From Tabrizicola sp. (lineage in GTDB: Bacteria > Pseudomonadota > Alphaproteobacteria > Rhodobacterales > Rhodobacteraceae): 64,000 bases of DNA. The stretch is taken from contig NZ_JAEULO010000041.1 of NCBI RefSeq assembly GCF_016793705.1, positions 124,001 to 188,000 on the forward strand, read 5' to 3'. Numbering within the stretch: position 1 is the first letter of the stretch; the number at the start of each line of letters is the position of its first letter. A model generated the notes under the pieces. The model was given only the letters and a program-made list of their open reading frames with translations. It had not been told where the DNA came from and made no database searches. Shown here piece after piece: positions 19,378-47,699 of the stretch. Made by a program: the position numbers and the translations under genes.

Positions 19378-19387
19378 GCAGGGAGGC

Positions 19388-19459
19388 TTAACAAACACCT
19401 AACGTCCACGGGCAAGCCATTGGGCCGGAAGGAAAATCCGGAAATGTCTACCGTGGACA
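19388..19459 (-). repeat. 72-nt palindrome/CtrA-like element, copy A
   Basis: Read on the minus strand: TGTCCACGGTAGACA (19459-19445), 42 bases, then TTAG-N7-TTAA (19402-19388). Element length and internal spacing are identical to the copies at 24084 and 47539. It starts 8 bases behind the stop of the minus-strand hydrolase gene. The right half fits the TTAA-N7-TTAA pattern bound by the cell-cycle regulator CtrA in alphaproteobacteria. The protein binding the palindrome is unknown. Confidence 0.7.
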
Positions 19460-19467
19460 AGCCCGGC

Positions 19468-20271
19468 TCAAAGCCCCTTCAGCAGCACCTCGCACAGGGC
19501 GGATCCGGGGTCGGCGAGCCCCTCGATCACGCTGAAATGGTGGTGCCCCGGATCGGCCGTCCAGGGGCAGCCCCATTCCTCGGACAGGACCCGCGCCTGC
19601 CACAGGAAGGCCGGCCGCTCCTCCGCCCCCACCCAGACATGCGCCGTCACCCCGTCCCGCAAGGCGTGTCGCGCCGGGCTCTCCGCCGATGCCTCGCCTT
19701 CGTCGATCCTCAGGGTCGCATTCATCCCGGTCTCGATCAGCGGCCCCAGTTCCGAAAGCGGAGAAATCGGCACCACCCGCGTCACCGGCACCGCCAGGTC
19801 GGCATTCCCCATCCGCGCCGCGAGGTGCCCCCCGGCGGAATGCCCCGTCACCACCATCGGCCCCGCGACGCGGGTGCCGACGAACCAGCAGGCCCGCGCG
19901 ATCTCGGCGGTGATCTCGGCCAGCCGCGCGGCGGGGGCGAGCGTATAGCTCGGCATCGCCACCGCATAGCCCTGCGCCAACGGCCCCGCGGCCAGATGCG
20001 ACCAGTGCGCCTTGGAAAAGAGGTGCCAGTAACCGCCGTGGACGAAGACGACCGCCCCCTTGGGCGTGCCTGCAGGCAGGAAGAGGTCCAGCTTCTCGCG
20101 CGGCGACGGTCCGTAGGCGAGATCAAGGTCCGCGCGCTTCCCCGACGCACTGCGAAAGTCGGTGGCCTTGGCGGCCCAGCGGGCCGGATAATCGGCGGCC
20201 CCGGCGATGAAATCACCGTTGGCGTAGTCGCGGTCGGGATCGGGCCAGCGGTAGGGCGGGGTAGGGGTCAA
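19468..20271 (-). CDS. Alpha/beta hydrolase, kynurenine-formamidase-like
   Basis: About 267 residues. The oxyanion-hole motif VFVHGGYWHLF is followed by the nucleophile elbow VTGHSAGGHLAARM. An Asp is plausible in a later strand, and His lies in DPGHHHFSVIEGL. HGGYW is characteristic of the formamidase-like branch of the esterase superfamily. There is no ATG; the TTG at 20271 with GGAG 8 bases upstream is the best start, while another TTG at 20328 would add 19 non-conserved-looking residues. The start is uncertain. The gene diverges from the mutarotase/ribokinase pair. Substrate is unproven. Confidence 0.72.
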   Translation of the reverse strand: MTPTPPYRWPDPDRDYANGDFIAGAADYPARWAAKATDFRSASGKRADLDLAYGPSPREKLDLFLPAGTPKGAVVFVHGGYWHLFSKAHWSHLAAGPLAQGYAVAMPSYTLAPAARLAEITAEIARACWFVGTRVAGPMVVTGHSAGGHLAARMGNADLAVPVTRVVPISPLSELGPLIETGMNATLRIDEGEASAESPARHALRDGVTAHVWVGAEERPAFLWQARVLSEEWGCPWTADPGHHHFSVIEGLADPGSALCEVLLKGL

Positions 20272-20404
20272 GGGGAAACTCCGGTCTGGGTCGCAGGGAG
20301 AGTGCGACGTACCCCCAGGGCGCTGCAAGAGGTCTCGCGCGTTCCTTGCCTAAACCGGGCAAGCCGGGCATATCCTTGACCAAAGCGACAAGAGGAGCGC
20401 CGAG

Positions 20405-23389: not shown

Positions 23390-24082
23390 ATGGGCAAGGG
23401 CGGGCAGCCGCGGGTTCTGCTGGTCGAGGACGAGCCCGCGCAGCGGACGGTGCTGGCTTACAACCTGGAAGCCGAGGGCTTCGCCGTGACCCAGGCCGAC
23501 AACGGCGAGGACGCGATGGTGCTGGTCGACGAGGAGGAGCCCGACATCATCATCCTGGACTGGATGATGCCGAAAGTCAGCGGCATCGAGGTCTGCCGGC
23601 GGTTGAAGATGCGGCCCGAGACGCGGGGCATTCCGATCATCATGCTCTCGGCGCGGGCCGAGGAGGTGGACCGGGTGCGGGGGCTGGAGACGGGTGCCGA
23701 CGACTATGTGGTGAAGCCCTATTCGGTGCTGGAGCTGATGGCCCGCGCCAGGGCGCAGCTTCGGCGGGTCCGGCCCTCGACCGCGGGGGTGGTGCTGGAG
23801 CACGAGGATATCCGGCTGGATCCCGAGAGCCACCGGGTTTACCGGGCGGACAAGGTGCTGAAGCTGGGGCCGACCGAGTTCAAGCTCTTGGTCACGCTGA
23901 TGGAGCGGCCGGGGCGGGTGTTTTCACGCGAGCAGCTCTTGGACCTGGTCTGGGGGCGGGACATCTATGTCGATACAAGGACGGTGGACGTGCATGTGGG
24001 GCGGCTGCGGAAGAGCCTGATGCAGTTCGGGGGGGCGGACCCGGTGCGGACGGTGCGGGGGGCGGGGTATTCTCTGGGATAG
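23390..24082 (+). CDS. phoB: Phosphate response regulator PhoB (OmpR type)
   Basis: A 230-residue response regulator. Receiver domain 1-125: VLLVEDEPAQ (acidic pocket), phospho-acceptor Asp in DIIILDWMMPKVSG, ALSAR-type LSARAEEVDR and Lys in YVVKPYSVLEL. The winged-helix DNA-binding domain is at about 135-228 (GPTEFKLLVTLMERPGRVFSREQLLDLVWG; DTRTVDVHVGRLRKSL). The sequence DWMMPKVSGIE is PhoB-like. The histidine kinase PhoR is not in the window. A 72-nt element begins 2 bases behind the stop. Confidence 0.93.
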   Translation: MGKGGQPRVLLVEDEPAQRTVLAYNLEAEGFAVTQADNGEDAMVLVDEEEPDIIILDWMMPKVSGIEVCRRLKMRPETRGIPIIMLSARAEEVDRVRGLETGADDYVVKPYSVLELMARARAQLRRVRPSTAGVVLEHEDIRLDPESHRVYRADKVLKLGPTEFKLLVTLMERPGRVFSREQLLDLVWGRDIYVDTRTVDVHVGRLRKSLMQFGGADPVRTVRGAGYSLG

Positions 24083-24083
24083 G

Positions 24084-24155
24084 TGTCCACGGTGGACAAA
24101 TTCGGTATTATATTTAAACTCAATGAGTTCCCGGTTTGCGTTAGCCATTTCTTAA
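24084..24155 (+). repeat. 72-nt palindrome/CtrA-like element, copy B
   Basis: TGTCCACGGTGGACA (24084-24098, perfect palindrome apart from its centre) is followed by 42 bases and TTAG-N7-TTAA (24141-24155). It starts immediately behind the phoB stop. The internal 42 bases differ from the other copies except for CG just before the TTA, which argues that the two end motifs and their spacing, and not the middle, are under selection. Confidence 0.75.
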
Positions 24156-24179
24156 CCTGCGGACGGTGGTGCGGGTTGG

Positions 24180-45439: not shown

Positions 45440-46792
45440 CTAATGCCCTTTTGCCTTTGAAACCTTGACGGCTTTCAACTTTTCGAACATCCGCGTCGCC
45501 AAGCCTGGCTTCGTGACCTGCCGCGCCCGGCCGATCGCCACGGCTTCGGGCGGAACATCCTCGGTGATGACCGAACCGGAAGCGGTCAGCGCTCCATCGC
45601 CCACTGTCACGGGCGCAACAAGCATCGTGTCGGACCCGATGAAGGCGCGCTTGCCGATTGTGGTCCGGTGCTTCATCACCCCGTCATAATTGCAGGTCAC
45701 GGTGCCGGCGCCGATATTGGTATGCTCGCCCACCTGCGCGTCGCCGAGATAGGTCAGGTGGCCGACCTTCACGCCCTCGTCCAGGATCGCATTCTTGATT
45801 TCGACAAAGTTGCCGACGTGCACGTCCTCGGCCAGTTCCGCGCCGGGGCGGAGGCGGGCGAAGGGGCCGACGGTGGCGCCGCGGCTGATGTGGCAGCCTT
45901 CGAGATGGCAGAATGCCTTGATCTCGGCCCCGGATTCCACGGTGACGCCGGGGCCGAAGATCACGTTCGGGCCGATGATCGCGTCGCGGCCGATATGGGT
46001 GTCCAGCGCGAAGAACACGGTTTCCGGGGCGGTCAGGGTGACGCCGTTCTCCAGCGCTTCGGCGCGGGCGCGGGCCTGGAAGGCGGCTTCGGCTTCGGCG
46101 AGTTGCTGCCTTGTGTTGACGCCCAGCGTCTCGGTCTCGGCGCAAAGGACGACCCCGGCGGAGAGGCCGCGCTTGCGGGCGAGTTCGACGATGTCGGTCA
46201 GGTAGTATTCGCCCGCGGCGTTGTCGTTCTTCACCTCGGCGATAAGAGAGAAGAGGGTGTGCGCCTCGGCGCAGACGACGCCGGAGTTGCAGAGGGTGAG
46301 GCTGTATTCCTCGGGCGTCGCGTCCTTGTATTCGCGGATCGCCAGAAGCTCGTCGCCCTGGGTCAGCAGACGGCCGTAGCGGCCAGGGTCACGCGCGTGG
46401 AAGCCGAGGACGACGACGGCGTGTTTCGCCCGTGCGTCGAGCATCGCACGGAGGGTTTCCTCGCGGATCAGCGGCGTGTCGGCATAGAGGACAATGGCCT
46501 CGCCCGGTTCGTCGGAAAGCAGCGGCGCGGCCTGGGCGACGGCATGGGCGGTGCCGAGCTGCGGGTCCTGGACGACGGTTTCGATCACCTCGCTGTAAGC
46601 CGTCGCGGAGGCGGCGACGGCCTCGCCCCCGTGGCCGGTGACGGTGACGATGCGCGACGGTTCCAGCGACTGGGCGGTCGCAAGCGCGTGGTGGAGGAGG
46701 GGGGCGGCGGCGACCTGGTGCAGGACCTTGGGCAGGTCGGAGTTCATCCGCGTGCCCTGACCGGCTGCCAGAACGATGACTGAAACCTGCAT
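45440..46792 (-). CDS. glmU: Bifunctional UDP-GlcNAc pyrophosphorylase / GlcN-1-P acetyltransferase GlmU
   Basis: A 450-residue two-domain enzyme. Uridyltransferase domain 1-230: VIVLAAGQGTRMNSDLPKVLH, QLGTAHAVAQA, LYADTPLI and AAGEYYLTDIVELAR. Left-handed beta-helix acetyltransferase domain from about 250: hexapeptide repeats, FARLRPGAELAEDVHVGNFVEIKNA, HLTYLGDAQVGEHTNIGAGTVTCNYDG and KRAFIGSDTMLVAPVTVGDGA. Together they convert GlcN-1-P to UDP-GlcNAc, the product after GlmS and GlmM. It diverges from gph across a 94-base promoter region. Confidence 0.97.
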   Translation of the reverse strand: MQVSVIVLAAGQGTRMNSDLPKVLHQVAAAPLLHHALATAQSLEPSRIVTVTGHGGEAVAASATAYSEVIETVVQDPQLGTAHAVAQAAPLLSDEPGEAIVLYADTPLIREETLRAMLDARAKHAVVVLGFHARDPGRYGRLLTQGDELLAIREYKDATPEEYSLTLCNSGVVCAEAHTLFSLIAEVKNDNAAGEYYLTDIVELARKRGLSAGVVLCAETETLGVNTRQQLAEAEAAFQARARAEALENGVTLTAPETVFFALDTHIGRDAIIGPNVIFGPGVTVESGAEIKAFCHLEGCHISRGATVGPFARLRPGAELAEDVHVGNFVEIKNAILDEGVKVGHLTYLGDAQVGEHTNIGAGTVTCNYDGVMKHRTTIGKRAFIGSDTMLVAPVTVGDGALTASGSVITEDVPPEAVAIGRARQVTKPGLATRMFEKLKAVKVSKAKGH

Positions 46793-46886
46793 TCTGCCCC
46801 TTCCTTTATCGTCGCGCCCGTTTTACCCCCCTTGGATCGGGTGGCAAGGGGGCGGGGCCTCACACCACGTTACAGGATTGCCAAGA

Positions 46887-47537
46887 ATGCGCTGCGTAGT
46901 CTTCGATCTGGACGGAACTTTGGCGGACACCTCGACCGACCTGCTGGCGGCGGCGAATGCCTGCCTGCCGCGGGCCTGCCTGGGGCCGGGGGATTCGCTG
47001 ACGGCGTTCCATGGCGGGCGGGCGATGCTGCGGCTGGGGTTCTCGCGGCTGCGGATGGACTGGTCGGAGGCCGATGTGGATGCGGCCTATCCGGTGCTGC
47101 TGGAGGCCTACCGGGGCGGGATCGCCACCCATACCCGGCTTTATCCCGGCGCGATGGAGGCGGTCGAGCAGCTCAAGGGGGCGGGCTTCGCGGTGTCGGT
47201 CTGCACGAACAAGCCGGAGGGGTTGGCGGAGCTTCTGCTGACGGCGTTGGGGGTGCGGGGGGCCTTTGGGGCGCTGGTCGGGGCGGATACCTTTCCGGTG
47301 AGGAAGCCCGATCCCATGCCCTACCGGGCGGCCGTGGAGCGGGCCGGAGGGGACGTTGGCCGGTCGATGCTGGTGGGCGACACCGAAACCGACGCGAAGA
47401 CCGGGGTGGCGGCGGGGGTGCCGGTCGTGCTGGTCACCTTCGGGCCGGAGGGGGCGGGAGTGGGGCGGTTCAACCCGGCGGCGCTTTTGGACCGGTTCGA
47501 GGATCTGCCAGGGCTGGCGGGGCGGCTGCTGGCCTGA
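46887..47537 (+). CDS. gph: HAD-family phosphatase, phosphoglycolate-phosphatase-like
   Basis: A 216-residue HAD hydrolase from the ATG at 46887 (MRCVVFDLDGTLADTS); the upstream open frame covers the glmU promoter. Motif I nucleophile Asp in VFDLDGTLADT, motif II Thr in VSVCTNKPEGLAELL, motif III Lys in PVRKPDPMPYRAAVE, and motif IV in SMLVGDTETDAKTGVAAGV. The helical cap lies between about 18 and 85. This is the Gph/PGP subfamily, which dephosphorylates 2-phosphoglycolate, though relatives act on other small phosphates. A 72-nt element follows 1 base after the stop. Confidence 0.87.
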   Translation: MRCVVFDLDGTLADTSTDLLAAANACLPRACLGPGDSLTAFHGGRAMLRLGFSRLRMDWSEADVDAAYPVLLEAYRGGIATHTRLYPGAMEAVEQLKGAGFAVSVCTNKPEGLAELLLTALGVRGAFGALVGADTFPVRKPDPMPYRAAVERAGGDVGRSMLVGDTETDAKTGVAAGVPVVLVTFGPEGAGVGRFNPAALLDRFEDLPGLAGRLLA

Positions 47538-47538
47538 G

Positions 47539-47610
47539 TGTCCACGGTGGACAAAAGTCGAGAACACAATCAGATCAGATAGATAGTCACGGGCGTTAAG
47601 GATTTCGTAA
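47539..47610 (+). repeat. 72-nt palindrome/CtrA-like element, copy C
   Basis: TGTCCACGGTGGACA (47539-47553), 42 bases, then TTAA-N7-GTAA (47596-47610), beginning 1 base behind the gph stop. Length and spacing are identical to copies A and B. The rest of the 368-base gap before the MFS gene holds a composite repeat and otherwise nothing I can recognise. Confidence 0.75.
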
Positions 47611-47699
47611 TCTCTGCGCAGGTGGCTCCGGGCGCGCGCTCGCTGCCTGACCACATGGGACGGGAAGTGCTTTTGGTGCTGGCCAATCCGCAGCGAAGC

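Follow-up and report, generated by a model that had tools for sequence, protein, structure and literature searches.

A composite element with a palindrome and an IHF-like site dispersed at gene ends in Tabrizicola-group Rhodobacteraceae and its candidate ParB-type reader

Three copies of a composite element downstream of genes

The window analyzed here, a 64,000-nucleotide stretch of the Tabrizicola sp. contig NZ_JAEULO010000041.1 (positions 124,001 to 188,000), holds three copies of an element of roughly 78 bp. Copy 1 (24084..24161, plus strand) lies behind a response regulator gene with a C-terminal DNA-binding domain (open reading frame at 23390..24082, plus strand; Pfam PF00072 and PF00486), which stops 1 nt before it. 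From left to right, this copy contains the 15-bp palindrome TGTCCACGGTGGACA (24084..24098), a putative site for a ParB-like dimer; an imperfect match to an IHF site, ACTCAATGAGTTC (24118..24130, columns 34 to 46 of the element); and a right-hand dyad, GTTAGCCATTTCTTAAC (24140..24156), all on the plus strand. Copy 2 (47539..47616, plus strand) follows a HAD-like hydrolase gene (open reading frame at 46776..47537, plus strand; PF00702/PF13419), again with 1 nt between the stop and the element, and repeats the palindrome TGTCCACGGTGGACA (47539..47553, plus strand) ahead of an imperfect IHF-like site, GATCAGATAGATA (47573..47585, plus strand), and the dyad GTTAAGGATTTCGTAAT (47595..47611, plus strand). 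Copy 3 (19382..19459, minus strand) starts 8 nt after the stop of an alpha/beta hydrolase fold gene (open reading frame at 19468..20328, minus strand; PF20434/PF07859); its palindrome, TGTCCACGGTAGACA (19445..19459), carries one change and is followed, likewise on the minus strand, by an imperfect IHF-like site, GCCCAATGGCTTG (19413..19425), and the dyad GTTAGGTGTTTGTTAAG (19387..19403). The positions and strands that a first-pass annotation had given for these copies were thus confirmed in the window sequence.

When the window was scanned unfiltered and at full sensitivity with R1, a sequence-only model of the element, copies 1, 2, and 3 scored 56.8 bits (E = 1.1e-16; model match at 24083-24161), 51.7 bits (E = 4.2e-15), and 57.3 bits (E = 7.6e-17), respectively, and the remaining matches were partial (E of at least 0.2); the scores of the three copies are favorable by construction, since all three are among the 62 copies from which R1 was built. 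With as many as three mismatches allowed, the palindrome had nine matches in the window, compared with a shuffle mean of 1.85 and a shuffle maximum of 5, six of the nine being the three palindromes counted on both strands.

Copy number and anatomy in the source genome

In the genome that contains the window (G000, from the Tabrizicola/Rhodobacter group; other G numbers denote compared genomes, and L numbers denote loci), the palindrome occurs at 99 places with at most one mismatch and the full bipartite pattern occurs at 81 places with at most three, compared with none for the reversed-pattern control in either case. The right half was present at all 50 of the 99 palindrome places that were checked, none of which was free-standing: 36 fit the full bipartite pattern, three (L004, L006, and L011) have a spacing of 40 to 41, and 11 were assigned by individual reading, including L337, where the right half is poor. 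Neither random distances nor a control-level frequency, the two outcomes named as refuting the first-pass annotation, was seen. The 42-base spacing, there described as fixed, is the commonest (62 of the 70 oriented copies), but 41 bases were found in seven copies and 40 in one. The 62 copies with a spacing of 42, aligned without gaps, were used to build R1.

Across these 62 copies, conservation begins abruptly at the palindrome and fades near column 77. The initial picture of a 72-nt bipartite element stopped short of the outer limit and overlooked a third part between the two ends, as well as the copy number and, as described below, the polarity toward stop codons, the dialects, and a candidate reader protein. 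The 42-base middle, taken to be free, is in fact constrained: columns 34 to 46 resemble WATCAANNNNTTR, the IHF consensus, and columns 15 to 17, 21 to 25, and 33 to 36 are biased. In its three parts, then, the ~78-bp element comprises the palindrome, the IHF-like site, and the right block. The pattern CARNNNNTTR is present at the IHF-like site in 57 of the 62 copies, WWTCARNNNNTTR in 35, and the strict WATCAANNNNTTR in 16; as background, the window contains 62 CARNNNNTTR sites and four WWTCARNNNNTTR sites in 128,000 positions. Columns 34 to 46 thus form a candidate IHF site at the level of the family consensus, with the copies in the window being imperfect instances. The right block, whose inverted repeat reads approximately GTTARGG-N4-STTAAC, is looser than the TTAR-N7-KTAA first proposed, with TTAG (26 copies), TTAA (12), TTCA (10), and TTTA (8) as the leading first quartets among the 62.

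A subtype in the same genome (L007, L104 to L107, and others) has an extended palindrome, often CTGTCCACGGTGGACAG, and a spacer that is one base shorter. Separately, in six copies, each located at a contig end, the sequence beyond the TTAA of the right block is foreign and common to all six (CTCAAGTTCCAASTGCAAC); the junctions are located in G000 (L007:117-133 and L060:1575-1591), G003 (L145:1564-1580 and L157:1565-1581), and T. thermarum (L206:57-73 and L306:56-72). A blastn search with the tail of L007 returned plasmid regions, with an IS30-family transposase annotated in two of the 10 matches listed, and an IS30-type element appears to target the right dyad.

Placement relative to genes and along the chromosome

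For 265 copies with 420 nt on both sides, and with genes called by an open reading frame rule, a stop codon lay at most 5 nt from the palindrome side in 123 cases and at most 5 nt from the other side in five; for gene ends within 12 nt, the corresponding counts were 153 and 12. Some copies lie past intrinsic terminators or tRNA genes, as judged by eye; at L017, L244, L269, and L370, the copy is downstream of a tRNA gene rather than a protein gene (recognized visually by the 3' end of the tRNA). The gene-end position may be due to the freedom of such DNA from coding and promoter constraint.

With the replication origin inferred from parB, copy orientation agreed with the direction of replication for 15 of 18 copies in G060 and for 26 of 35 copies of at least 35 bits on contig 1 of G010, although this perhaps merely follows gene orientation. 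Regular spacing of copies along G010 was not significant (P = 0.08 to 0.22). Three of the 18 G060 copies lie within ~0.15 Mb of the antipode of the inferred origin; in this sample of only 18, no exclusion from the terminus was seen.

Palindrome dialects among relatives

Matches to R1 were found in all 32 genus genomes, at 1 to 129 copies each. The exact TGTCCACNGTGGACA, however, is absent from seven of these genomes, and where it is rare or missing, the IHF-like site and right block stand behind different palindromes. We refer to these as dialects: GCGCCGCGCGCGGCGC accounts for eight of 13 dyads in G003 and nine of 18 in G031, TGTCCACGCGTGGACA accounts for eight of 11 in G020, and TGTCCCGGGCRGGGACA is found in G005, while G011, G019, and G030 have mixed TGCCCRCGCGYGGGCA-type palindromes and G007, G019, G022, and G030 are mixed in dialect. 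Outside the genus, GCGTCCGAGCTCGGACGC makes up 12 of 13 dyads in G060, and GCGTCCCACNGTGGGACGC-type and CCCCCTGTGTTACAGGGGG-type palindromes were read in five copies of G186 and three copies of G153, respectively. The palindrome sequence reported as shared is therefore shared within one dialect only. The palindrome of the source genome has an odd length (15 bp), and several genomes contain palindromes of both odd and even length.

The geometry is retained as the sequence changes. In a search that allowed 16 to 42 bp, the distance from palindrome center to the TCAA of the IHF-like site was 27.5 to 28.5 bp in 276 of 299 copies (those of 365 right-block matches that had a detectable palindrome), and the center-to-IHF-like-site distance is kept in other genera, with a value of 24.5 in the single measurable copy of G153. 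A further alignment (A3) comprised 85 of 128 stretches. The proposal of two DNA-binding events at a set distance is borne out to the extent that this spacing is found again across the genome and in other genera, despite changes in the palindrome sequence. Positions are partly shared as well: G000 has a copy at 16 of 25 G010 gene ends, and four of 11 G060 gene ends have a copy common to the genus, several of them with clearly different palindromes. Since the bases adjoining the palindrome vary between copies while the palindromes agree, homogenization by copying is unlikely, and selection by a trans-acting reader fits the uniformity of the palindromes better.

An orphan ParB-type protein as candidate reader

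Two protein families, ParB_N and the Y1 REP transposase family (PF01797), were searched for. A high-scoring ParB was found by the ParB_N search in 12 of 12 genomes, including element-free ones; besides it, there was a second ParB_N protein of ~275 amino acids. In the source genome, this candidate reader, P0001, is encoded outside the window (G000:C19:41932-42753) and comprises 273 amino acids with the chosen start, in an open frame of 286. A gene of this kind is present in 21 of the 32 genus genomes, in two of them (G009 and G018) as an N-terminal fragment; this count omits G028, whose homolog is only 33% identical and which brings the automatic tally to 22 of 32. Genomes with the gene have 40 to 129 element copies, compared with 1 to 127 in those without (Mann-Whitney P = 0.0037 for the 32 genus genomes; P = 0.031 for the 23 better genomes). 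Three copy-rich genomes lack a close homolog, namely, G022 (119 copies), G026 (83 copies), and G028 (127 copies, with the 33% homolog), possibly through gaps in metagenome bins, and the gene was also not found in G014 (48 copies) or G006 (40 copies). Orthologs are present in the element-bearing members of other genera, G060, G153, and G186. Against the family profile, none of the ParB_N frames read from the element-free genomes G034, G043, and G071 and from one G039 plasmid exceeded 42 bits; the ParB-type frames read from element-free genomes are not orthologs.

The predicted structure of P0001 (pLDDT 83.7) matched Noc best, followed by ParB and KorB, and a predicted helix at residues 140 to 156 qualifies as part of a helix-turn-helix. 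The motifs GxRRxxA and ENxxR, the nucleotide motifs of ParB-family CTPases, occur in all 21 P0001-family proteins; by its sequence features, the family thus belongs with the ParB-family CTPases and may bind CTP. None of the 21 proteins, as cut by their chosen starts, contains the ParA-binding motif [LFI]G[KR]G[LFI], as defined in PMC12704722. The first ParB strand of P0001 begins at residue 4, and the G000 frame permits at most 13 extra residues upstream (286 versus 273), compared with the ~26 residues that precede this part in Noc according to PMC8429893. P0001 thus has no room for a Noc-type N-terminal membrane-targeting amphipathic helix, and because its N-terminal extension is shorter than that of Noc, we do not class P0001 as Noc. 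Plasmid relatives are 34 to 37% identical among the 15 listed of 183 records.

A second ParB-like protein, 32 to 33% identical and encoded by open frames of 361 to 366 amino acids, is present in four genus genomes, at G011:C43, G016:C49, G018:C154, and G028:C52; G028 has this protein without a close P0001 ortholog, yet carries its 127 elements. Furthermore, the genes between the element at the end of a slyX-like gene and the ParB-like gene differ between L488 (G000) and L489 (G010): the former stretch holds an XRE/ImmA-type protein and the latter holds other genes (names assigned from translations); this region is apparently a hot spot for insertions.

Divergence of the recognition helix and the palindrome

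For 18 genus proteins, the divergence of each 13-residue segment was regressed on that of the rest of the protein, and pairs from different dialects, labeled manually, were compared with pairs from the same dialect (alignment A4, without G012, in which the N terminus is disrupted near a contig edge). The segment at residues 139 to 151, at the predicted recognition helix, ranked first of 261 for dialect-linked divergence. In label permutations, one of 5,000 reached the value of this segment, and likewise for the maximum (P = 0.0002); permutation breaks the phylogeny, which helix and dialect share, and the regression corrects for common ancestry only partly. The helix RIRNHVSV is found in 10 genomes in which 34 to 84% of R1 copies have the exact TGTCCACNGTGGACA, whereas a different helix is found in nine genomes in which 0 to 30% do. 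Two exceptions were seen: G029 has the helix RLRAHVQV, yet TGTCCACGGTGGACA in four of 15 copies, and G023 has RIRNHVSV, yet GTCCCGGGCAGGGAC in two of four dyads. In a manual alignment of the helix, residues 142, 147, and 148 of P0001 correspond to residues 173, 178, and 179 of Caulobacter ParB, of which 173 and 179 are described as specificity positions and 178 as a DNA contact in PMC7383237.

Comparison with known systems

In Bacillus subtilis, the nucleation sites of Noc are 16-bp NBS sequences found dispersed over the chromosome (PMC8429893). The system proposed here would share with it an orphan ParB-family protein, many short palindromic sites dispersed over the chromosome, and a predicted fold nearest to solved Noc structures. 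It differs in that an IHF-like site and a second dyad make each site a composite of ~78 bp, that species of one genus have different palindrome dialects, that the sites abut stop codons, and that no Noc-type N-terminal helix fits; furthermore, both NBS and parS have an even length. Noc sites are depleted near the terminus.

P1 parS, a site of about 80 bp, is similar in length to the element, in which an IHF-like consensus stands between two dyads that may be contacted by protein. The ParB boxes of P1 parS lie asymmetrically on either side of an IHF site, and bending at this site promotes the binding of ParB (PMC5016525). The element, however, is chromosomal, with many dispersed copies rather than a single plasmid centromere; it has one palindrome and a different dyad; and the P0001 family lacks the ParA-binding motif. 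P1 parS is a close functional precedent, and the element combines the layouts of P1 parS and Noc/NBS. Because both the Noc N-terminal helix and the ParA-binding motif are absent, we class the proposed system as one that would work like the Noc and P1 systems rather than as a member of either.

Chromosomal ParB-parS pairs a ParB-family protein with a palindromic site of 15 to 18 bp, as proposed here, but a separate high-scoring ParB is present in all 12 genomes searched, element-free ones included, and the elements are spread along the chromosome. The repABC parS sites are palindromes read by plasmid-type ParB proteins, and P0001 has plasmid relatives; their consensus, given as GTTNNCNGCNGNNAAC in PMC9040568, is, by eye, not matched by the element dialects. 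A description of this layout was not found in the literature searched.

Alternative explanations

The palindrome could instead be read by another dimeric DNA-binding protein, such as a TetR-, LacI-, or XRE-type regulator, with the ParB-like gene merely co-inherited. ParB_N was the sole candidate regulator family tested, a close homolog is missing from three element-rich assemblies, and odd-length palindromes are unusual for ParB and Noc. However, the peak of dialect-linked divergence on the recognition helix of this very protein and the right half accompanying every palindrome place checked (if poorly at L337) make such a reader unlikely.

Similarly doubtful, if slightly more so, is a REP-type repeat that lacks a dedicated ParB-type reader. 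In this case, a transposase would have spread the palindromes, an IHF site would have been co-opted where transcription units end, and the main effect would be on mRNA 3' ends or on supercoiling. The RIB/RIP elements of E. coli (BIME-1) are repeats that contain an IHF site and are found at the 3' ends of transcription units in tens of copies; the IHF-like site, the gene-end position, and the copy number of our element resemble them, and the IS30-type insertions recall the targeting of REPs by insertion sequences. The Tabrizicola element, though, has dialects, a geometry that is kept even in other genera, and a ParB-type candidate reader, and the Y1 REP-associated transposase was found in none of seven genomes searched (controls were positive in five of 14). 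Moreover, spacers differ between copies though palindromes agree, and some copies lie, by eye, past terminators or tRNA genes.

A transcription terminator, or an RNA hairpin in the 3' untranslated region that acts immediately behind the stop codon, would account for the strong polarity toward stop codons, 0 to 5 nt from the palindrome in 123 of the 265 copies, and the dialect palindromes could form hairpins. RNAalifold, however, returned only a 5-bp stem with a covariation term of 0.01, the stem being nearly invariant within G000, and the strongest mutual information was between neighboring columns; these results favor a DNA rather than an RNA readout. Since column 15, just past the stem, has A (0.47) as often as T (0.40), some copies lie, by eye, beyond intrinsic terminators, and the distance to the IHF-like DNA site is fixed, we consider this explanation very improbable. 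Least credible is a cell-cycle element with CtrA reading the TTAA-type half alongside a partner: the right dyad resembles TTAA-N7-TTAA, as the first-pass annotation had held, and a putative CtrA site, CTAA-N7-TTAAC, is reported upstream of a Paracoccus repABC operon in PMC9040568, but the strict box is present in only one of 62 copies, TTAG is commoner than TTAA, and the element sits behind gene 3' ends, not at promoters.

Proposed role and significance

We therefore favor, with a probability of roughly 0.65, the reading that each copy is a loading site of a chromosome-wide ParB/Noc-type system. A dimer of the orphan protein P0001 would read the palindrome through its recognition helix, and bending of the DNA by IHF would allow the bound dimer or a second protein to contact the right block as well, as at P1 parS; a ParB-type clamp would then load and spread onto nearby DNA. 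More speculatively, the many dispersed loading sites might serve nucleoid occlusion or chromosome organization, much as Noc acts from scattered NBS, and nucleoid occlusion, chromosome organization, and transcription control are all possible cellular roles for the orphan protein. The full picture, to which we give somewhat less than even odds, is that Tabrizicola-group Rhodobacteraceae carry about 100 P1-parS-like, IHF-bent loading sites of an orphan ParB-type clamp, that the specificity of its recognition helix and that of the sites changed jointly, more than once, inside a single genus, and that the system amounts to a dispersed centromere or to a counterpart of nucleoid occlusion in alphaproteobacteria.

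If this reading is correct, it would join two arrangements known apart, IHF-assisted plasmid ParB sites and an orphan ParB relative with its sites dispersed over the chromosome, and would place such a system in a clade for which our literature search found none. The dialects provide a natural series for studying how the specificity of a DNA-binding protein can shift jointly with that of ~100 unlinked sites, and with several dialects and mixed genomes, which may be intermediates, in a single genus, the rules relating helix to site become directly testable. Many gene ends in each genome would then belong to a single nucleoprotein system instead of being idle intergenic DNA.
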